Source of the DNA: Alistipes sp.
GTDB lineage: Bacteria; Bacteroidota; Bacteroidia; Bacteroidales; Rikenellaceae
Direction: 5' to 3'
NCBI GenBank assembly: GCA_017559615.1
Contig: JAFYRB010000087.1
Span: 31,557-95,556, forward strand
Length of the DNA stretch: 64,000 nucleotides
Below are positions 8,558 through 63,789 of this stretch, piece after piece (positions within the stretch are counted from its first letter, which is position 1; the number at the start of each line of letters is the position of its first letter). Position numbers and translations under genes: made by a program. Below the pieces are notes generated by a model. That model ran no database searches, was not told the origin of the DNA, and saw only the letters and a list, made by a program, of their open reading frames with translations.

Positions 8558-8594
8558 AAAAAAAAGAGACCGTTTTATGCGGCCTCTTTTTTTT
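8558..8594. terminator. Bidirectional terminator between convergent SPFH and O-methyltransferase genes
   Basis: An A-run, then GAGACCG, loop TTTTATG, CGGCCTC (one G-U pair) and a run of eight Ts. It can end both converging transcripts. Confidence 0.85.
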
Positions 8595-9228
8595 ATTTTA
8601 CCCTTATCATATTGATTCCGTCACGGATTGGAACGATGACGTTATCTACCCTATCATCCTGCACAACCATACGGTTAAACTCCACGATAGCCTGCGTATG
8701 GTGGTCGGTACGTGCAATAGGCTCGGCAACCTTACCATACCACAAAATGTTGTCAGCCAACATTATAGAGCCACTGCGGACATAGCCTCCATCCATCAGC
8801 ATATTATAGTAGGCAGGATACTCGCGCTTATCGCCGTCGATAAACACCATATCGTAAACCTCGCCCAACGTAGGCACTACATCCAACGCCGAGCCGATAT
8901 GCTGGCGGATGCGGTGACCATACTCCGACTTCTCGAAATATTTAGCTGCTATATCCTCCAACTCATCATCCACCTCGATAGTATCGAGATACGCACCATC
9001 CTCCAAGCCACGCGCGATACTGAGTCCCGAGTAACCTGTGAAAGTTCCAATCTCCAACACTCGCTTTGGGCGCATCATACGCACCAGCATCTCCAAGAGT
9101 TTACCCTGAAGATGGCCCGATATCATACGCGGGTTAATAACACGCAGGTATGTCTCGCGCTCGAGTTGGTGCATAAGCGCCTCCTCGGGCTTCGTATTAT
9201 CCAAGATATATTGCTCTAAGTTATTCAT
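8593..9228 (-). CDS. SAM-dependent O-methyltransferase, class I
   Basis: 211 aa. SAM-binding motif I is VLEIGTFTGYSGLSIARGL (about residue 56), the acidic strand-2 residue falls in LDTIEVDDEL, and the metal-site block is VYDMVFIDGDKREYPAYY. This is the layout of the caffeoyl-CoA O-methyltransferase / TrmR family (O-methyltransferase family 3). Bacterial members methylate small molecules or tRNA uridine derivatives; the substrate cannot be told here. It is the last gene of the dapB operon, 11 bases after the M16 peptidase. Confidence 0.88.
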   Translation of the reverse strand: MNNLEQYILDNTKPEEALMHQLERETYLRVINPRMISGHLQGKLLEMLVRMMRPKRVLEIGTFTGYSGLSIARGLEDGAYLDTIEVDDELEDIAAKYFEKSEYGHRIRQHIGSALDVVPTLGEVYDMVFIDGDKREYPAYYNMLMDGGYVRSGSIMLADNILWYGKVAEPIARTDHHTQAIVEFNRMVVQDDRVDNVIVPIRDGINMIRVK

Positions 9229-9239
9229 TTTTAGAATAT

Positions 9240-10460
9240 TTATTTTCCGTAAACAAGACGCGACAGATGTCCCAAGCTATCCTCCGCAACAGCCATAATC
9301 TGCTCGGCGGTGATACCCATAACCTTCTTATAAGCCTCCTCCAGAGTATCGATATCCTTGTAGAGAAGATAACTCTTTCCCGCACCAAGCATATAACCCT
9401 CGTTCGACTCCATAGATATTGCCATCTGCGCCACAAACTGACGCTTCGCAATAGCCAGACGGCGTGGCGAGATAACCTCCTTGGCAAGCATCGCAACCTT
9501 CTGCTCGATAAGCTCCACGCACTGCGACATATTATCGTGGTCGGACGAGAAGTAGATGCCCACAATACCACAATCGGAGTATGGCGTGTAGGTAGCTTCG
9601 ACATTATACGACAAGCCTCGCTTCTCACGTAACTCAATGTTTAAAAGTGAGTTAGCCGAAGGACCACCCAAGATATTCACCAACAGCGCCAACGGCAAAC
9701 GTCGCTCATCCGAGATACTATAACCTCGCGTGCCGATGATGCCGTGCGCCTGATGCGTATGGCGTGCAAGATGCACATCGAAAGGCTCATACGCCAACGG
9801 CTGCTGACGCACAAAACCGCGCTCGGTAGGCGCTACACAGCCGAGATATCGCTCCGCAACAGCACGTGCCGTAGCCACCGAGAAGTTACCTATCGACGAG
9901 AATACCATCTGGTCGGTGGTATAGGTGCGCTCCACAAATCGGTGCAGCGCCGCGCTATCGAAACGTGCGATAGAGGCCTTCGAGCCGAGGATATTATGTC
10001 CCAACTCCGAGCCTCGAAATATCAAATCCTCGAAGTCATCGTAGATACGCTCCGAAGGGGAGTCCTTATATGAGTTTATCTCGTCGGCAATAACCTCACG
10101 CTCCTTACGAAGCTCCTTATCGGGGAACGACGAGCGAAAGATAACATCTGCAATAAGCTCCACAGCACGCTGAAAATCACGCCTTAGGACCGTTGCGTGG
10201 AGCGTAGTATCCTCCTTTGTGGTGTAGGCATTCAGCTCGCCACCGAGGTTCTCCAAGCGGCAGTTTACCTGATAGGCCCTACGGCGCTCCGTACCCTTGA
10301 AGAGTGCGTGTTCGGCAAAGTGCGCGATGCCATACTCACCCTTCAGCTCATCACGACAACCAGCATTCACCACCAACGCACAGTGTGCCACACCGCTACG
10401 TACCTGACGGTGAATACCACGAATACCATTTGAAAGTGTATATGTTTCGAACTCTGCCAT
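9240..10460 (-). CDS. M16 family zinc metallopeptidase
   Basis: 406 aa from the ATG at 10460. An upstream in-frame ATG would add 16 residues inside uvrA, but [15 protein letters not shown] is the normal start. The inverted zinc motif HxxEH is HFAEH at residues 47-51 (the two His bind zinc and Glu50 is the base); the downstream ligand glutamate lies in ENLGGELNAYTTKEDT. A second, inactive M16 domain fills the C-terminal half. The family degrades peptides or processes exported proteins. The start codon overlaps the uvrA stop (TAATG), showing tight coupling. No signal peptide is seen, so it is probably cytosolic. Confidence 0.92.
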   Translation of the reverse strand: MAEFETYTLSNGIRGIHRQVRSGVAHCALVVNAGCRDELKGEYGIAHFAEHALFKGTERRRAYQVNCRLENLGGELNAYTTKEDTTLHATVLRRDFQRAVELIADVIFRSSFPDKELRKEREVIADEINSYKDSPSERIYDDFEDLIFRGSELGHNILGSKASIARFDSAALHRFVERTYTTDQMVFSSIGNFSVATARAVAERYLGCVAPTERGFVRQQPLAYEPFDVHLARHTHQAHGIIGTRGYSISDERRLPLALLVNILGGPSANSLLNIELREKRGLSYNVEATYTPYSDCGIVGIYFSSDHDNMSQCVELIEQKVAMLAKEVISPRRLAIAKRQFVAQMAISMESNEGYMLGAGKSYLLYKDIDTLEEAYKKVMGITAEQIMAVAEDSLGHLSRLVYGK

Positions 10461-13876: not shown

Positions 13877-15370
13877 TTACTTAATGGAACTAAAGATACG
13901 GTTCCAGCGCACACCACCCTTCGCAGGATCGACCGAGAACCAGATATACGAAGCCTTACCAACGATATGATCCTCCGGCACAAAGCCCCAGAAGCGAGAG
14001 TCGAGCGAGCCGTGACGGTTATCACCCATCATAAAGTAGTAGTCCTGCTCGAAGGTGTAGGTCGTAGCAAGCTCGCCATCGATATATACCTCCTCTCCAC
14101 GGCGCTCCACGGCGTGTCCCTCGTAGACCGCGATACAACGCTCATACATCGCCATATTCTCATCGTTAAGTTCTATCGTAGCACCCGCCTGTGGCACCCA
14201 GATAGGGCCCATATCGTCAATCGTCCAGCGCTGACCACGCTTAGGCGTAGTATGTGGGATAAGCGCACTTCCCGACACCGCACCGCCAATCTTCTTAAGG
14301 CTATAACGTGTCGAATCGGCATACTGTGCCAACTCATCATCTGTAACAGGAAGCTCCATATACTCTCCCGTCGAAGCATCTATACCCACCTTCAAAGGCT
14401 TGGCTGTAAGCTCGTTGTAGTAGATATACTGACGCTTTGGCACGAAGCTCTCCTTCTGTCCGTTATGGTACACCGCGCCATCAATAATCTGCAACGTATC
14501 GCCAGGGATACCCACGCAGCGCTTGATGTAGTTCTCCTTCTTATCCAAAGGTCGTACGGCAAGTGTAAAGTTATCGGCGATGTTTCTGCGACGCTCCTCG
14601 ACACTCTTACCCAATCGCTCGTCGCGCAACAACTCATAGTAGCTCATTGCTGCCATCTCCAACACCACAGTATCGCCCTCTGGGAAGTTGAAGACCACAA
14701 CATCATCGCGCTCCACCTTGCCACACGCCGCCAAGCGACGATACTTCCTCTCCCACGCCGTAGAGAACGACGCCTTCTCGGGATTCATAGGCATTGTGTT
14801 ATGCACGAAGGGGAACGAGAGCGGAGTCATAGGCACACGTGGGCCATACGACACCTTATTCACGAGGATGTAGTCACCCGCCAAGAGCGTACTCTCCATC
14901 GAACCCGTAGGGATGACAAACATCTGAAACCAATACAACTGGATAAGCGTTGCCACAACCGTAGCAAAGAGTATGGCGTGTACCCAGCCGTAAATCCAAA
15001 GATATATCTTCGACTGATTCTTCAACTCCGACCATAGTGCCACGGCCATAACTACACCAAAGGTGAGAAGGAATGGCTTCTCCCAGCGGAAGAGGAGCAT
15101 ATGTATGATAACACCCACAACAAGTGCGAATACCGCAGCGCACCACACCGCCCAGAGTATCTGATACCAGCGATGCTTCTCATACATCTTGGCGTGAAAC
15201 CTCTTGATATTACCTCCGATGTAGTAGTCGTAGACGATAGGCAGCGCCACAAAGAGCGACCACCACGCACCATACCACAAGGCAAAGAGCGTAACGATAA
15301 CAGCCACAATAGCGGCCATAACCCACGGACTTGCAAAAAACTGCTTTAGCGCAGCAATAATCTTACTCAT
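13877..15370 (-). CDS. lepB: Signal peptidase I (long Bacteroidetes form)
   Basis: 497 aa, against about 180-320 in many bacteria. It cleaves signal peptides from exported proteins at the inner membrane. Four or five hydrophobic segments precede the catalytic region. The nucleophile Ser is in VIPTGSMESTLLAGD (box B), the general-base Lys in NYIKRCVGIPGD (box D), and box E is GDNRHGSLDSRFWG. About 150 residues separate boxes B and D, more than usual. It is the second gene of the operon, 9 bases after dapB. Confidence 0.96.
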   Translation of the reverse strand: MSKIIAALKQFFASPWVMAAIVAVIVTLFALWYGAWWSLFVALPIVYDYYIGGNIKRFHAKMYEKHRWYQILWAVWCAAVFALVVGVIIHMLLFRWEKPFLLTFGVVMAVALWSELKNQSKIYLWIYGWVHAILFATVVATLIQLYWFQMFVIPTGSMESTLLAGDYILVNKVSYGPRVPMTPLSFPFVHNTMPMNPEKASFSTAWERKYRRLAACGKVERDDVVVFNFPEGDTVVLEMAAMSYYELLRDERLGKSVEERRRNIADNFTLAVRPLDKKENYIKRCVGIPGDTLQIIDGAVYHNGQKESFVPKRQYIYYNELTAKPLKVGIDASTGEYMELPVTDDELAQYADSTRYSLKKIGGAVSGSALIPHTTPKRGQRWTIDDMGPIWVPQAGATIELNDENMAMYERCIAVYEGHAVERRGEEVYIDGELATTYTFEQDYYFMMGDNRHGSLDSRFWGFVPEDHIVGKASYIWFSVDPAKGGVRWNRIFSSIK

Positions 15371-15379
15371 AGAACTCTA

Positions 15380-16096
15380 CTACAACAAGTTATCCATACT
15401 ATAAACTCCGCCCTCTGCGACCTTCGAGAGATACTCACCTGCAAGCACCGCACCCATAGCCAATGCTCGGCGGTTAGTAATTGAGTGCTTCAACTCAATA
15501 AAATCATCCTGCGATGTGTAGGTAACGGTGTGGATACCTGGCACCATACCCTCGCGGAACGACTCAATCTCCAACTCCTCGGCCGAGGATGGTGTGTTAT
15601 TCACCCACGACGACTTACGGTCGAGATTCTCGATAACGCCCTCGGCAAGTGTGATAGCCGTACCACTTGGCGCATCCTTCTTCCACATATGGTGAGTCTC
15701 CTCGATACGCACGTCATACTGCGAATATGGATTCATCAACTCGGCAAGACGGCGATTGAGGCGGAACATCATATTCACACCAATCGAGAAGTTCGAGGCG
15801 TAGAAGAGCGCACCACCCTTCGCTGCGGTAAGCTCCTTCATCTCGCCAAAGCGTGCGAGCCAGCCCGTAGTGCCACACACAACCTTACCTCCAGCGTTAA
15901 GCACCTTCGCAACATTATCCGCACCTGTCTCAGGCGTTGTGAACTCGAACGCCACATCCACCTTTGCGATATTCTCGGCTGTTAACTCCGCAGCATTCGC
16001 CTCATCAATCACCAACTCCACGTTGTGGCCACGCTCCACCAATATACGCTCAATCTCGCGTCCCATCTTTCCGTAGCCTATAATAGCACATTTCAT
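15380..16096 (-). CDS. dapB: 4-hydroxy-tetrahydrodipicolinate reductase
   Basis: 238 aa. It reduces the cyclic product of DapA with NAD(P)H on the way to diaminopimelate and lysine. The Rossmann motif is IIGYGKMGREIE at the N-terminus, followed by the conserved TTGW, the FYASNFSIGVNMMF block and the active-site segment EETHHMWKKDAPSGTA, with its catalytic His and Lys. It is the first gene of a six-gene operon (dapB-lepB-yigZ-uvrA-M16-OMT) whose spacings are all 20 bases or less. Confidence 0.97.
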   Translation of the reverse strand: MKCAIIGYGKMGREIERILVERGHNVELVIDEANAAELTAENIAKVDVAFEFTTPETGADNVAKVLNAGGKVVCGTTGWLARFGEMKELTAAKGGALFYASNFSIGVNMMFRLNRRLAELMNPYSQYDVRIEETHHMWKKDAPSGTAITLAEGVIENLDRKSSWVNNTPSSAEELEIESFREGMVPGIHTVTYTSQDDFIELKHSITNRRALAMGAVLAGEYLSKVAEGGVYSMDNLL

Positions 16097-59216: not shown

Positions 59217-61334
59217 TTAATACCTCTGAAGATGTATATTATAATCTATAAACACATCACAGTGTCCACACACAAAATCTGCTCTTTCGGTTGAGTAATA
59301 CCTCTCGTAGATTGTACGATAGTTACCCAACTCGTAGTGTAGCTCTGCGGCAAGCTCATCATCCGTAACCTCGAACAACGTCTGCGAGATTAGCGAGTGT
59401 GCGCGTGTCATCGCCTCTCGCATCTGCTCGCCATCCATCCACTGCTCCTCGTAGTATAATCCCTCGCCGCAGCAACCCCTGTAATACTGCGTAAGAGTCC
59501 AACACTTATTAAACGAGTTGAGAATACCGATAGCATAGCGCATAGCAATAGGTGCGCGGCGGTTAGGGTCCGAGATACGCTCCATATCCTGCTCCAATGC
59601 TGCCATCTCGCGGGCAAACTGATAGCGGAAGTCGTTATTATTCACAGCATTAGGTAGCGACACTGACTTTACACTAAATGGGTTATAGTTAAGCACCACG
59701 TTGAGTTTAAAGCCATACTCCACCTTGGCAAAGACATCTCGTGCCTCGGCATAGCGCATCTCGCGCAGCAGCTGCGTGCCGAGGATATCGTAGAGGTAAC
59801 TAAGGTTGACATATCCCTTCTCGCAGACAAACCTATCGAGGGCATCCTGTGGCCTCTCGACACGCTCCACAAAGGCTCGAGTCTGCTCGGGCGTAGACTT
59901 ATTTATAAGCACAAAGAACTGATTTTTGTAGTCCACCTCGTTGAAGAGATAGCTACTCTCGCGCATATCCTTCACCGTATATGTCCAGCAGCTGCCATAC
60001 CCACACATATCTGCACTCTTATAAGAGCCATACCATATATCTTTATCCTCGGGCATAAAGCGGTAGTAACCATAGTTGGCAAGCTGCAACGCACGAAGAT
60101 GCTTACCCTCGCTATGGAATCGTGGCACGAGAATCTCAAAGAATAGGCGGTTATGCGCCCTCTTCCAGAACTCATCCGACGTACTCTCATACGCCGCACA
60201 CATCCTATCGAGCCACTTCAGCTCCTCGACAAGATGACGCTCGAAGGCCGAGTCTAACTTCGCGGTACGCGCATAGAGAGCCAAATCCAAGAGGCGGATG
60301 GAGTTTGCAATGGTCTCTGTTGTAGGATATTGCTTCGCAAGACGGAGCAGTCGCTGCGCCTCACCGAAGTTTTGCTCCATAGCGTAGAGATAGGCCGCAG
60401 TGTAGTACCACATCGCCCTATCCTTACTCTCCGACTCGCGGGCAAACTCCGATGCTACCACACACACCCTATGTAGCTCCTCATCGATAGTCTCCCCATT
60501 ATCGCCAAACCGATTCATATCCTCCTCCGTATAGCAAATCGTGCGCTCGAGGGCATTGCGGATATAGGTTGTAGAGGAGTAGTTGCGATAGACAATCGAG
60601 ATAATCTCCGCAGCACCCATACGTATATTCTCACGCTTGGCGATATACTTCAACGAGCCAATATCCACCGCCTTGGCGTAGTAGTCCAAAGCCTCCATAG
60701 AGCGTGAAGTGCGGTATAACGCTCCCGCAACATAACTTGCAATATACTGACGCATAATATTATCGGCAGGCAGCGACTCTACCCTATCCCACAGTGCAAT
60801 AACCTCTTCGTAGCGGCCCAGCGTAAAGAGCGCACGCACGGCTTGCAGAAGGTAACGCTCCCCGAGGCGTCCCTCGCTACGTGATAGTGCCACCTCGACA
60901 ATCTGCTCGAGGCTCATATCGCCTGGCGTAGGCATCGAGGGGTAGTACCAACGTGAGTGGATGTGGAAGCGCACATCCTCGTTGCGCTTGGCAAGGAGCA
61001 GAAAGTCGACAATATCCGAGGCATTGCGCTTAATGTATCGAGCAAAGAGGTTATCGCCACCATACACCGAACTCTCGGCAAAGGCCTGATACTCCTCCAT
61101 ACTCCACTCGTAGACCACCTCGGTAATATCCTTCGTGGGGATACTCTTGGAGGTCTGCTGCTGCCAATAGAGGCAGTTATCCATCGACATCGTATTCTCG
61201 CTCTCGGACTGCTCCACAAGGCGATACATCGACGTACCTGTGAAGTGATGCCACGGATCGTAGTAACAAGCGCGGCTAATTGCGGGTTGTAGTATCGCTA
61301 TGCTCATTATGAGCAAACATCTCAAAAATCTCAT
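59217..61334 (-). CDS. Large exported helical-repeat protein, function unknown
   Basis: 705 aa from the ATG at 61334 (MRFLRCLLIMSIAILQPAISRA, a good signal peptide). An ATG at 61307 is also possible; the 728-aa frame from 61403 has a poor N-terminus. It overlaps the upstream lipoprotein gene by 59 bases, so the two are coupled. The middle (about 170-400) has TPR-like helices (LFTLGRYEEVIALWDRVE, then EALDYYAKAVDIGSLKYIAKRENIRMGAAEI). Many Tyr and Trp are present, and a CxxC (CGHC) lies near the C-terminus. I recognise no enzyme motif. It is likely a periplasmic or outer-membrane scaffold working with the TIM-barrel-like lipoprotein. Confidence 0.75.
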   Translation of the reverse strand: MRFLRCLLIMSIAILQPAISRACYYDPWHHFTGTSMYRLVEQSESENTMSMDNCLYWQQQTSKSIPTKDITEVVYEWSMEEYQAFAESSVYGGDNLFARYIKRNASDIVDFLLLAKRNEDVRFHIHSRWYYPSMPTPGDMSLEQIVEVALSRSEGRLGERYLLQAVRALFTLGRYEEVIALWDRVESLPADNIMRQYIASYVAGALYRTSRSMEALDYYAKAVDIGSLKYIAKRENIRMGAAEIISIVYRNYSSTTYIRNALERTICYTEEDMNRFGDNGETIDEELHRVCVVASEFARESESKDRAMWYYTAAYLYAMEQNFGEAQRLLRLAKQYPTTETIANSIRLLDLALYARTAKLDSAFERHLVEELKWLDRMCAAYESTSDEFWKRAHNRLFFEILVPRFHSEGKHLRALQLANYGYYRFMPEDKDIWYGSYKSADMCGYGSCWTYTVKDMRESSYLFNEVDYKNQFFVLINKSTPEQTRAFVERVERPQDALDRFVCEKGYVNLSYLYDILGTQLLREMRYAEARDVFAKVEYGFKLNVVLNYNPFSVKSVSLPNAVNNNDFRYQFAREMAALEQDMERISDPNRRAPIAMRYAIGILNSFNKCWTLTQYYRGCCGEGLYYEEQWMDGEQMREAMTRAHSLISQTLFEVTDDELAAELHYELGNYRTIYERYYSTERADFVCGHCDVFIDYNIHLQRY

Positions 61335-62271
61335 CGTCGGTATAGTTATTAAGTTCGTTAATATCAAGGTGATACAAAATATTAGATTGGTATGGTGCGC
61401 CAAAGGTCTTCTCTACAAGTGCCTTAACCTCAAGCACCTCCTTGGCCGAAGCACGCTCCTTACGCAGCGTCTCACCCTCGCCCACATCCTCGCTATTCTC
61501 GTCACTTACAAGCGCCACGAACTGCTTATCGCGGAACTTAACACCCCAGCCATAGGCGGGATAGGCGTAGTCCAGAGGCAGAGCATACTCCCTTGGGTGC
61601 ATATATGGCTCAACATCTGCAATGTCGAGGATGGAGTTACGCGTGTTGAAGCTCTTGATAGCACCCGTATTGTAGAGCATCAGCACGCCACGTGCCACCT
61701 CGGGAGCCTCCTCACGAAGCTGATGCAGACGCACCGTAACGCTCAACTCTATACCCTTCTCTTTGAGAAGCTCGCGAGCTACACGGCAGAGTTCGAAGTA
61801 GCTGTCGCGCGTTGTGGCAGTCCAATCGCAGTCGAACTGCACCTCACGAATCTCACCGCAGTTGTTATACGACGCCATAGCAAGCAGCCTCTGCACCAGC
61901 AACTCGGCATATTCACTCTCCAAGTCCTTCATAATCTTCAAACCCTCGAGCGTGATGTAGGTTACGGGAATCACCTCAACACCCTCGGGAATAGGAGCCT
62001 TGAAGCGAGTGGTGGCAATAGGTACCGCCTCGATATCATCGCGTTCATAATCGTAGTCCGCCACAACGTCGAACATACGGATGTAGAGGCGGCCAATGTT
62101 GTGACGCTCCAGAAAGGCAAGCTCCTCGGCCGTAGGTTCGAAACTACCCTTCCAATGGTAAATCGCATTGGTAGGCTCGGGATGATGTAGCGCGCGCTGC
62201 TGCGACGTGGAGTCGTGACACCCTGTGGCAACTATTGCCACAGAGAGTAGCATAAAAAAGAGTCTTCGCAT
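61276..62271 (-). CDS. Lipoprotein with TIM-barrel (glycoside-hydrolase-like) appearance, function unknown
   Basis: 331 aa. Lipobox IVATGC, Cys18. The mature part alternates strands and helices as in a TIM barrel: HNIGRLYIRMFDVVADYDY, then EIREVQFDCDWTATTRDSYFELCRVARELL (an acidic DCDW at a strand end), then IELSVTVRLHQLRE and GVLMLYNTGAI. This pattern recalls uncharacterised families (DUF3142-like) distantly related to glycoside hydrolases; catalysis is unproven. It heads a two-gene unit with the helical-repeat protein and is preceded by LytTR-type direct repeats and a terminator. Confidence 0.7.
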   Translation of the reverse strand: MRRLFFMLLSVAIVATGCHDSTSQQRALHHPEPTNAIYHWKGSFEPTAEELAFLERHNIGRLYIRMFDVVADYDYERDDIEAVPIATTRFKAPIPEGVEVIPVTYITLEGLKIMKDLESEYAELLVQRLLAMASYNNCGEIREVQFDCDWTATTRDSYFELCRVARELLKEKGIELSVTVRLHQLREEAPEVARGVLMLYNTGAIKSFNTRNSILDIADVEPYMHPREYALPLDYAYPAYGWGVKFRDKQFVALVSDENSEDVGEGETLRKERASAKEVLEVKALVEKTFGAPYQSNILYHLDINELNNYTDDEIFEMFAHNEHSDTTTRN

Positions 62272-62299: not shown

Positions 62300-62307
62300 C
62301 AAAACTG
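62300..62307 (-). promoter_or_regulatory. Weak -7-like element of the lipoprotein unit
   Basis: Minus-strand CAGTTTTG, one base from TAnnTTTG, 29 bases before the start of the lipoprotein gene. It lies 49 bases from the upstream direct repeats, against 48 for the LytTR gene's own promoter. Confidence 0.4.
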
Positions 62308-62325: not shown

Positions 62326-62348
62326 AGCCAAGGAAAAACTCCTTGGCT
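62326..62348 (-). terminator. Terminator after the phosphodiester-glycosidase-like gene
   Basis: AGCCAAGGA pairs perfectly with TCCTTGGCT (9 bp, loop AAAAC), followed by six Ts on the minus strand. It separates the regulator unit from the lipoprotein unit. Confidence 0.85.
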
Positions 62349-62378
62349 GTATGAAATCCCAGATTGGGTGTATGAACT
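62349..62378 (-). promoter_or_regulatory. LytTR-type direct repeat pair, site 2
   Basis: GTATGAAAT (62349-62357), 12-base spacer, GTATGAACT (62370-62378) on the plus strand: a 21-bp period. It lies upstream of the lipoprotein gene and matches site 1 in repeat sequence and spacing. Confidence 0.7.
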
Positions 62379-62398
62379 CCTCGGCGTAGTGCGATTTG

Positions 62399-63328
62399 CT
62401 AATCGTTCTTCGCACGCCAGATTATGTAGTTTGTATTTTTAGGCATACGTCTGCGGCCTGTGTAGTAGTTCGGAATTCCAAATTCGCGGCACTCGCCAAG
62501 CTCATCCACCGCCCAGCCATAAGACTCACTACCAGGCAGATTGATAGCATTGTCGATGCCCAAATCGACGAGTGCTTGTGTGAAGTCGTGGAACGACTCC
62601 TTCGTAAGGCACTCAACCATAAATGTCTCGTCATCACGCTGACAGATGGCACGGCGCACAGACTTATTTTTAGGCTCGTTCTCGACAAACTCTCCGTTAT
62701 CAACCAGCGGATACTGACGGAAGAAGTAGCCACCTCGCTCGGTAGCCTGCTCGAAGAGTGGCGAGTTATCTGCCACGCCCACCGTAACCTTGCCATCTAT
62801 AACCGCGCAGTAGCCACGCACCGAAAGTCCCCAAGCACGAGGCTCACCACCCAGAACGAAAGCACCGACAATACCTCCATTATCCGAGCGGATAAATGCC
62901 GCCTCGGCGACATAGACAATCGCCTTATCATCCTTCGAGACCTTGCCAATGTGCAACGACATCTCGGCGTTATGTGGGATGTAAATCTTCAGCGGAACAT
63001 CGTTTATCGTGGTATCACGAATCTCTGTAAATGAGCCACTTACCTCACCCTCCGCAATACGTGACATTCGCTCGCGTGGTGCCTCCACAGGCTCCTTCAT
63101 AGCCTCAACAGGCACAACAACATTACCCTCCTCGACGTACATAACCTGCTCCTCGATTGACTCCGTGCGTAGCGCAAACATCAGCGCAACCGCTACCGTT
63201 ACCACCGCGACGATAAGGCCAACAAAAAGCCACAAGCGCTTCACGCCACCCTGCTTCTTCGCCGTTGGGTGACCGATGATGCGAATCTCATTCTCGCCAA
63301 TATCGTTATAGTTATTTCTCCTACTCAT
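62399..63328 (-). CDS. Membrane-anchored phosphodiester-glycosidase-like (NAGPA domain) protein
   Basis: 309 aa. A basic cytosolic N-terminus, one membrane helix (RLWLFVGLIVAVVTVAVALMFAL, about 31-53), a linker, then an extracytoplasmic domain from about 100. Its blocks IRSDNGGIVGAF, PRAWGLSVRGYCAVIDGKVTVGVADNSPLFEQA, and the C-terminal FTQALVDLGIDNAINLPGSESYGWAVDE are like the phosphodiester glycosidase (NAGPA) family, which removes GlcNAc from phosphodiesters. The exact substrate is unknown. It is encoded 2 bases after the LytTR regulator. Confidence 0.7.
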   Translation of the reverse strand: MSRRNNYNDIGENEIRIIGHPTAKKQGGVKRLWLFVGLIVAVVTVAVALMFALRTESIEEQVMYVEEGNVVVPVEAMKEPVEAPRERMSRIAEGEVSGSFTEIRDTTINDVPLKIYIPHNAEMSLHIGKVSKDDKAIVYVAEAAFIRSDNGGIVGAFVLGGEPRAWGLSVRGYCAVIDGKVTVGVADNSPLFEQATERGGYFFRQYPLVDNGEFVENEPKNKSVRRAICQRDDETFMVECLTKESFHDFTQALVDLGIDNAINLPGSESYGWAVDELGECREFGIPNYYTGRRRMPKNTNYIIWRAKND

Positions 63329-63330
63329 TG

Positions 63331-63693
63331 CTATTTAACCTCCATTTCGATATGCTCCTTGAGCTGCTTCAGAGCCTCCTTCGATGCCGACACCGTATGG
63401 CTGAACGAGACTGCGTCGCTAAGCACAAGTTTCTGTTTTGTGATGTTTATATAGTAGATATATGAGCGATTGATAATCAAACTCTTACCAATGCGGATAA
63501 ACTGCTCGCCAGCGCTGCCCAGCTGCGTGAATATCATCCTCTCGATTTGGCCAAGCTGATACGACAGCATACGCATCTCGCCATCGGCCTGCACCATTGT
63601 CGAGTAGTTGCCATCGGACGAGATGTAGACTATACGCTCGGGCGCGATACGCACCAAATCGTTAGCAGTAGATATGATAAGATGTTTGGTCAT
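63331..63693 (-). CDS. Stand-alone LytTR DNA-binding regulator
   Basis: 120 aa, all LytTR domain with no receiver. It opens with HLIISTANDLVRIAPERIVYISSDGNYST, then FIRIGKSLIINRSYIYYIN and the helical tail KEALKQLKEHIEM. Such one-domain LytTR proteins bind 9-bp direct repeats and are controlled by levels or partner proteins. Here a matching direct repeat lies upstream of its own gene and again before the downstream lipoprotein gene, so autoregulation and control of the cassette are likely. It is first in the unit, followed by the membrane phosphodiester-glycosidase-like gene. Confidence 0.92.
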   Translation of the reverse strand: MTKHLIISTANDLVRIAPERIVYISSDGNYSTMVQADGEMRMLSYQLGQIERMIFTQLGSAGEQFIRIGKSLIINRSYIYYINITKQKLVLSDAVSFSHTVSASKEALKQLKEHIEMEVK

Positions 63694-63711
63694 AGTTTCT
63701 GTTTACGTAGG

Positions 63712-63719
63712 CAAAATTA
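63712..63719 (-). promoter_or_regulatory. -7 element of the LytTR gene
   Basis: Minus-strand TAATTTTG matches TAnnTTTG, 18 bases before the start codon; a weak GTTG sits 19 bases upstream in the -33 position. Confidence 0.55.
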
Positions 63720-63759
63720 CAATCTTTTTTCTGATAGACAACCCCAAACTGCGGGGAAT

Positions 63760-63789
63760 GTATGAAATATAGGATGGGACGTATGAAAT
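63760..63789 (-). promoter_or_regulatory. LytTR-type direct repeat pair, site 1
   Basis: GTATGAAAT at 63760-63768 and again, identical, at 63781-63789, with a 12-base spacer. It lies about 40 bases upstream of the -7 element of the LytTR gene. Confidence 0.75.

Follow-up and report, generated by a model that had tools for sequence, protein, structure and literature searches.

The window analysed here, the whole 64-kb stretch of DNA, carries near its far end a small set of genes on the minus strand, in which a LytTR-type regulator, a membrane protein and a predicted lipoprotein are accompanied by two paired direct-repeat sites, referred to as operators 1 and 2. In the direction of the genes, the features are as follows.

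63757..63789, minus strand: operator 1, ahead of the LytTR operon, a pair of half-sites whose 9-mers lie at 63781-63789 and 63760-63768, conserved in relatives
63712..63719, minus strand: -7 element TAATTTTG of the predicted promoter of the LytTR operon, located 37 bp past the 12-mer half-site
63331..63693, minus strand: gene for a LytTR DNA-binding protein of 120 aa (PF04397, E 9.6e-10, residues 13-115)
62399..63328, minus strand: gene for a single-pass membrane protein of 309 aa, with a short cytoplasmic tail, a helix at residues 29-53 (model) and a periplasmic domain of predicted NAGPA/DUF2233 fold
63272..63289, minus strand: EIRIIG tail motif, codons 14-19 of the membrane-protein gene, conserved, a candidate LytTR-binding peptide
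62346..62378, minus strand: operator 2, in the interval that separates the membrane-protein gene from the lipoprotein gene, a pair of half-sites whose 9-mers lie at 62370-62378 and 62349-62357
62326..62348, minus strand: terminator-like hairpin closing the LytTR/membrane-protein operon, its stem beginning within the extended promoter-proximal half-site of operator 2
62300..62307, minus strand: -7-like element CAGTTTTG of the predicted lipoprotein promoter, 38 bp after operator 2
61276..62271, minus strand: target gene for a 331-aa predicted lipoprotein (by eye) of GH18-like fold, with DCDWT where GH18 has DxDxE
59217..61403, minus strand: gene for a 728-aa protein of no clear family, probably second in the target operon and with a doubtful start codon

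The perfect pair in operator 1, two copies of GTATGAAAT separated by a 12-base spacer and thus repeating with a period of 21 bp, is present as the preliminary description had it, and so is the pair GTATGAAAT/GTATGAACT in operator 2, which has one difference and the same spacer and period. The one further single copy of GTATGAAAT claimed for the 64 kb was also recovered, on the minus strand near position 16090. Read in the sense of the genes, the site is ATTTCATAC-N12-ATTTCATAC. This pair pattern, with up to three mismatches allowed, has two matches in the window, neither of which contains a mismatch; when the window was shuffled 100 times, the mean was 0.19 such matches, and two of the 100 shuffles reached two. 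A weight-matrix scan of the whole window returned operators 1 and 2 only, with no third site. Operator 1 sits just past the terminator-like hairpin of the preceding gene for ribosomal protein L31.

In the 120-aa LytTR protein Pfam found PF04397 alone, with no receiver domain. A search of PDB sequences with the LytTR alignment gave no match at E 0.01, and NCBIfam gave no useful match for the regulator or for its membrane partner. The gene had been taken to stand alone, a view that has to be given up: the gene for the 309-aa membrane protein begins 2 bases after the LytTR stop codon, and a homologue of this membrane protein is found in 77 of 81 loci (the window and the best 80 of 112 relatives, with partial and split genes counted). 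Judged from gene arrangement, the LytTR and membrane-protein genes form a two-gene operon.

Relatives were collected by a LytTR profile search, of which the best 80 of 112 were kept (records labelled as Bacteroidales groups or broader), giving 81 loci with the window. One of these loci, L071, comes from an isolate of Parabacteroides. The sites of these loci share the consensus ATTTCRTACA, recurring every 21 bp, and an iterated half-site model places a paired site upstream of the LytTR gene in 50 of the 81. At a stricter score, and with 10 of the 81 loci left out for short flank, 71 loci including the window were eligible. Site 1, upstream of the LytTR gene, is present in 43 of these and absent in 28, and site 2, downstream of the partner gene, is present in 49; the two sites occur together in 30 loci, while 19 have site 2 alone, 13 have site 1 alone and 9 lack both. 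Where there is site 2 only, it lies 1.0-3.2 kb after the LytTR start. The loci lacking site 1 are mostly those with more diverged LytTRs: among the best 80 of 112 relatives (L050 excluded), site 1 accompanies 38 of 46 LytTRs with at least 65% identity and 10 of 33 more diverged ones. LytTRs found beside conserved sites in this set are 51-83% identical to that of the window. In 869 kb of Markov-shuffled loci, approximately 2 matches reached score 18. Conservation upstream of orthologous loci, the check that had been named as capable of refuting the proposal, was favourable to it, the site recurring at the LytTR promoter and at a second, downstream promoter with the -7 element in register.

The membrane protein shows a second conserved element. 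Its cytoplasmic tail bears an EIR[VI]IG-like motif or a close variant in all 74 orthologues compared (from the window and the best 80 of 112 relatives, 7 of the 81 loci being left out for contig ends, split genes or ORFs under 270 aa). Mean column identity is 80% in the motif versus 32% in the rest of the tail and 29% in the membrane helix (L038 excluded). Retention of the motif in a tail that otherwise varies points to a cytoplasmic partner. The predicted fold of the periplasmic domain in the window protein is that of the NAGPA/DUF2233 phosphodiester glycosidases (3ohg, 6pkg, 5h3k). The window protein passes the cut-off of PF09992, and among 26 aligned orthologues 21 give a match to this family at E 0.01. 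An active-site motif of NLDGG type is characteristic of the NAGPA/DUF2233 phosphodiester glycosidases. No such motif was found in the window protein: in an alignment to 5h3k, the NLDGG of that enzyme corresponds to NLPGS in the window protein, and in most of the orthologues to YLVG[S/G], with V at position 265 in 68 of 74 and D never among the five commonest letters. Glycosidase activity of the membrane protein appears doubtful on these grounds, and we propose that it serves as tether or inhibitor of the LytTR protein and as sensor.

By analogy, the closest precedent for such an arrangement is the LytTR Regulatory System (LRS) of S. mutans, e.g. HdrRM and BrsRM, in which the regulator is kept inactive by its membrane partner and positive feedback runs through the repeats (PMC6193735). 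Common to both are a soluble LytTR regulator without receiver domain, encoded directly upstream of a membrane protein (here with a 2-base gap); pairs of 9-bp repeats ahead of the operon promoter, separated in most cases by 12 bp, a feature found here in the window and in 43 of the 71 eligible loci and absent in 28 (window and best 80 of 112 relatives); and further repeat-bearing targets. Unlike the S. mutans systems, in which the repeat is ACCnCTTAT-like, the locus described here has the repeat ATTTCATAC and a promoter of the main Bacteroides type, and its partner is a single-pass protein with a NAGPA-fold periplasmic domain and an EIR[VI]IG tail, a type that does not occur among the LRS partners in the excerpted text of PMC6193735. 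The autoregulatory site is missing in many relatives here, and inhibition by the partner is in our case a proposal. The ‘LRS-like’ operons of Bacteroides (PMC6193735) belong to the same phylum and likewise combine a LytTR with a membrane protein and repeats upstream of the promoter, but in these the membrane protein (NfeD/DUF2154) comes first, the LytTR is itself membrane-spanning, and the repeats are of 11 bp with 11-bp gaps (TCCGG...). Response regulators of the AgrA type (PMC4227749) resemble the present system in their LytTR domain and in the direct repeats that precede the promoter, whereas the 120-aa protein has no receiver domain and no histidine kinase was found among the five window genes scanned. 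A literature search on LytTR in Bacteroidales or Alistipes and on DUF2233 gave no paper on the pair among the matches listed (titles and abstract starts, with subscription journals mostly outside its coverage).

We consider it probable that the locus represents an LRS of a new Bacteroidales type, in which a membrane-held LytTR protein activates its own operon and the adjacent operon for an exported protein. The 120-aa LytTR protein would bind half-sites paired at a distance of 21 bp, ahead of promoters of the main (sigma-ABfr) type, and would activate two of these promoters, that of its own operon through operator 1 and that of the exported-protein operon through operator 2. The single-pass membrane protein would hold LytTR inactive via the EIR[VI]IG tail; an envelope ligand, probably an amino-sugar glycan, would bind the NAGPA-fold periplasmic domain and relax this hold, and positive feedback through operator 1 would then amplify the response. 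Such feedback would not be universal, operator 1 being absent in 28 of the 71 eligible loci. It is tempting to speculate further, with rather less assurance, that a new class of signalling across the membrane is at work in Bacteroidota, in which the degenerate periplasmic glycosidase is the ligand sensor, the six-residue EIR[VI]IG peptide beside the helix tethers LytTR, and release drives a plug-in promoter, consisting of paired ATTTCRTACA with the second 12-mer ending 37 bp before TAnnTTTG. The genes that this promoter has captured in different lineages would in this tentative version encode GH18-like lipoprotein, alpha-2-macroglobulin, WG-repeat, lipocalin/NlpE-like, TPR and other proteins, mostly exported. 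In the excerpted text of PMC6193735, the bench-characterised LRS of that time are those of S. mutans only, and how the membrane partner holds the regulator is left unsettled. The conserved peptide and the folded periplasmic domain provide a concrete, testable candidate for both halves of such a switch.

It is less likely that LytTR binds both operators while the membrane protein is no inhibitor, acting instead as a co-activator, as an anchor that brings LytTR to the membrane, or as an output enzyme. The enzyme fold of the periplasmic domain would suit such a role, and the layout of the Bacteroides LRS-like operons does differ (PMC6193735). Several points favour the inhibitor proposal over this alternative: the tail motif or a close variant persists in 74 of 74 orthologues while the other tail columns vary, the NLDGG of the NAGPA-fold relative is not kept, and removal of each of five S. 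mutans membrane partners led to increased operon expression (PMC6193735).

The main sigma factor of Bacteroides (sigma-ABfr type) uses a -7 element TAnnTTTG and a -33 element TTTG (PMC7366714). The distances of 48 and 49 bases from repeats to -7 elements given in the preliminary description hold when measured to the far end of TAATTTTG and CAGTTTTG. Counting period-21 sites only and identical promoter stretches once, the -7 element starts 37 bp past the site in 84 of 97 distinct copies of sites 1 and 2 taken together. For site 1, TAnnTTTG lies at 37 bp in 40 of 47 distinct copies and within 36-39 bp in all 47; for site 2, it lies at 37 bp in 44 of 50 and within 36-38 bp in 48, none being found in 2. 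The search used a loosened TAnnTTTG (one of the first two letters free) and chose the element nearest to 37, which flatters the small tail; the exact 37-bp peak is not accounted for by this choice. Site 1 also shows a T-rich position that resembles a -33 element. The half-sites are conserved and the spacer is not: information content reaches 2 bits at the invariant T and TAC positions of the half-sites, and does not exceed 0.68 bit in the 9-base spacer at site 1. Operator 2 of the window itself combines an imperfect pair with a weak -7 element 1 bp off the usual register.

Since the paired site lies wholly upstream of the -33 and -7 elements and at a fixed distance from them, its placement fits activation. 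It does so also in view of the promoter-proximal AgrA repeats, centred near -60 (PMC4227749), and of the LRS repeats, which lie just upstream of the promoter (PMC6193735). LytTR bound to half-sites that are spaced by two turns and precede the promoter is most likely an activator. That LytTR is mainly a repressor at the paired sites seems improbable. Operator 2 does abut a terminator-like hairpin, and CTGTAY, the inverse of the TACAG end of the half-site, follows within 42 nt in 13 of 50 distinct copies of site 2, which would suit repression; but a whole paired site at a fixed place upstream of -33 and -7 is in the usual position for an activator, and the -7 element at operator 2 of the window is weak. 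The overlap of the hairpin with the half-site, noted at the corresponding place in relatives as well, might conceivably couple termination to binding and so affect read-through.

The occurrence of the site in whole genomes was assessed with a composite of the paired site, 39 free bases and TAnnTTTG. In 50 genomes of relatives, which include some used in building the site model, the composite with at most three mismatches is present in 45, from 0 to 6 times per genome and mostly 1 to 3 times (reversed control, 0 of 50), in keeping with the small regulon that had been suggested. A fairer test is provided by a draw of 295 genomes from the order of genome G001, with only G001 shared with the training set. 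The LytTR protein (E 1e-15) is found in 18 of these, and the composite with at most one mismatch in 8 of the 18 LytTR-positive genomes, being missing from the other 10, versus 0 of the 277 negative ones (Fisher p 3e-11, and 6e-10 without the centre genome G001). Two LytTR-negative genomes, G044 and G248, also match at up to two mismatches, and at up to three the composite is found in 12 of 18 positives and 18 of 277 negatives, i.e. in 30 of 295 genomes overall (reversed control, 2 of 295). The denominator of 18 includes what looks like another LytTR type, to judge from 4 of the 18 positives (G171, G215, G312 and G321) in which the best LytTR match is followed by a gene for an FHA-like protein (by eye).

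In genomes G237 and G137, a second LytTR match is likewise followed by an FHA-like protein (by eye). The more distant small LytTR genes with such a neighbour (by eye) are L145, L146, L147, L148, L150 and L151. Perhaps these distant LytTR and FHA-like genes constitute a second kind of LytTR pair.

The pair pattern alone was rejected as a predictor of the regulon. At three mismatches it matches 32 of 32 relatives' genomes, with the reversed control hitting several, and at two mismatches it matches 108 of the 295 genomes drawn from the order. Far greater specificity is reached by the composite that includes the -7 element. Many of the two-mismatch matches to the pair pattern are a recurring ATTTCGTTnAC...ATTTCATACA sequence or copies of a repeat in genome G172, which has many site-like repeats, lacks this LytTR and gives a single composite match, at three mismatches. 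The G172 repeats probably belong to a different repeat family.

Another DNA-binding protein of the same genomes, e.g. a LytTR paralogue, might be imagined to read the sites, as a second, more distant LytTR match exists in four genomes (G001, G237, G137 and G143). We regard this as very unlikely, in that the sites track the present LytTR (8 of 18 versus 0 of 277 genomes at one mismatch or fewer) and are found at the promoter of its own gene in 43 of the 71 eligible loci (window and best 80 of 112 relatives), and none of the second matches (L149-L152) is preceded within 300 bases by a perfect pair of 9-mers at period 20-22. Chance repeats without function, which 2 of 100 window shuffles with at least two pair-pattern matches (up to three mismatches) might bring to mind, deserve hardly any credence given conservation beside LytTRs of 51-83% identity, the fixed promoter register and the co-occurrence at genome level; the earlier claim that the pairs are not due to chance therefore stands, the window evidence being suggestive by itself and conservation in relatives decisive.

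As to the predicted targets, the 331-aa target of the window shows a GH18-like fold. The catalytic motif of GH18 is DxxDxDxE. It was not found in the 331-aa lipoprotein: DCDWT is invariant in 17 of 17 aligned lipoprotein sequences, with Thr in place of the usual catalytic Glu (matched by motif). A search of PDB sequences with the lipoprotein alignment gave nothing credible (best E 0.095), and Pfam, run on all 17 members of the family, gave nothing convincing. The 728-aa ORF behind it has a TTG start and overlaps the end of the lipoprotein gene, and its true start probably lies further in.

The gene following site 2 varies by lineage. With target families defined by sequence clusters and by Pfam matches of representatives, the 52 of 81 loci with a site-2 match (window and best 80 of 112 relatives) comprise the lipoprotein family (20), WG-repeat proteins (11), alpha-2-macroglobulin-like proteins (8) and others (13, including 3 without an assigned ORF). 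In two loci (L038 and L073) the lipoprotein gene lies further from the regulator, yet the site still precedes the gene; at L031, no site was found directly before the distant lipoprotein gene. Single genomes add remote targets, among them a protein kinase pair and TPR, M23 peptidase, DarT-domain, SIMPL and VWA proteins. Judged by eye, most targets appear to be exported proteins; exceptions are the kinase, DarT-domain, VWA and DUF1848 proteins. A fixed operator-promoter module of this kind makes the regulon readable from sequence across Bacteroidales known only as metagenome assemblies.

Some further arrangements were noted among the genomes. On contig 34 of genome G020, five composite sites fall within approximately 17 kb (L111, at 8575-9813 and 14995-15507, and L112) and precede, among others, genes for an M23 peptidase, a DarT-domain protein and a homologue of the window lipoprotein; going by its sites, this cluster is an expanded local regulon. 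Genome G001 has two related genes on different contigs (L120 and L121) with one variant operator, TTTCCTACTT...ATTTCGTACA, in the standard register, and the one of these that was scanned encodes a Ser/Thr-type protein kinase. In genome G237, two opposed operators approximately 25 bp apart lie between the LytTR gene and a divergent lipoprotein-like gene (L132/L198), and this site may drive divergent promoters.
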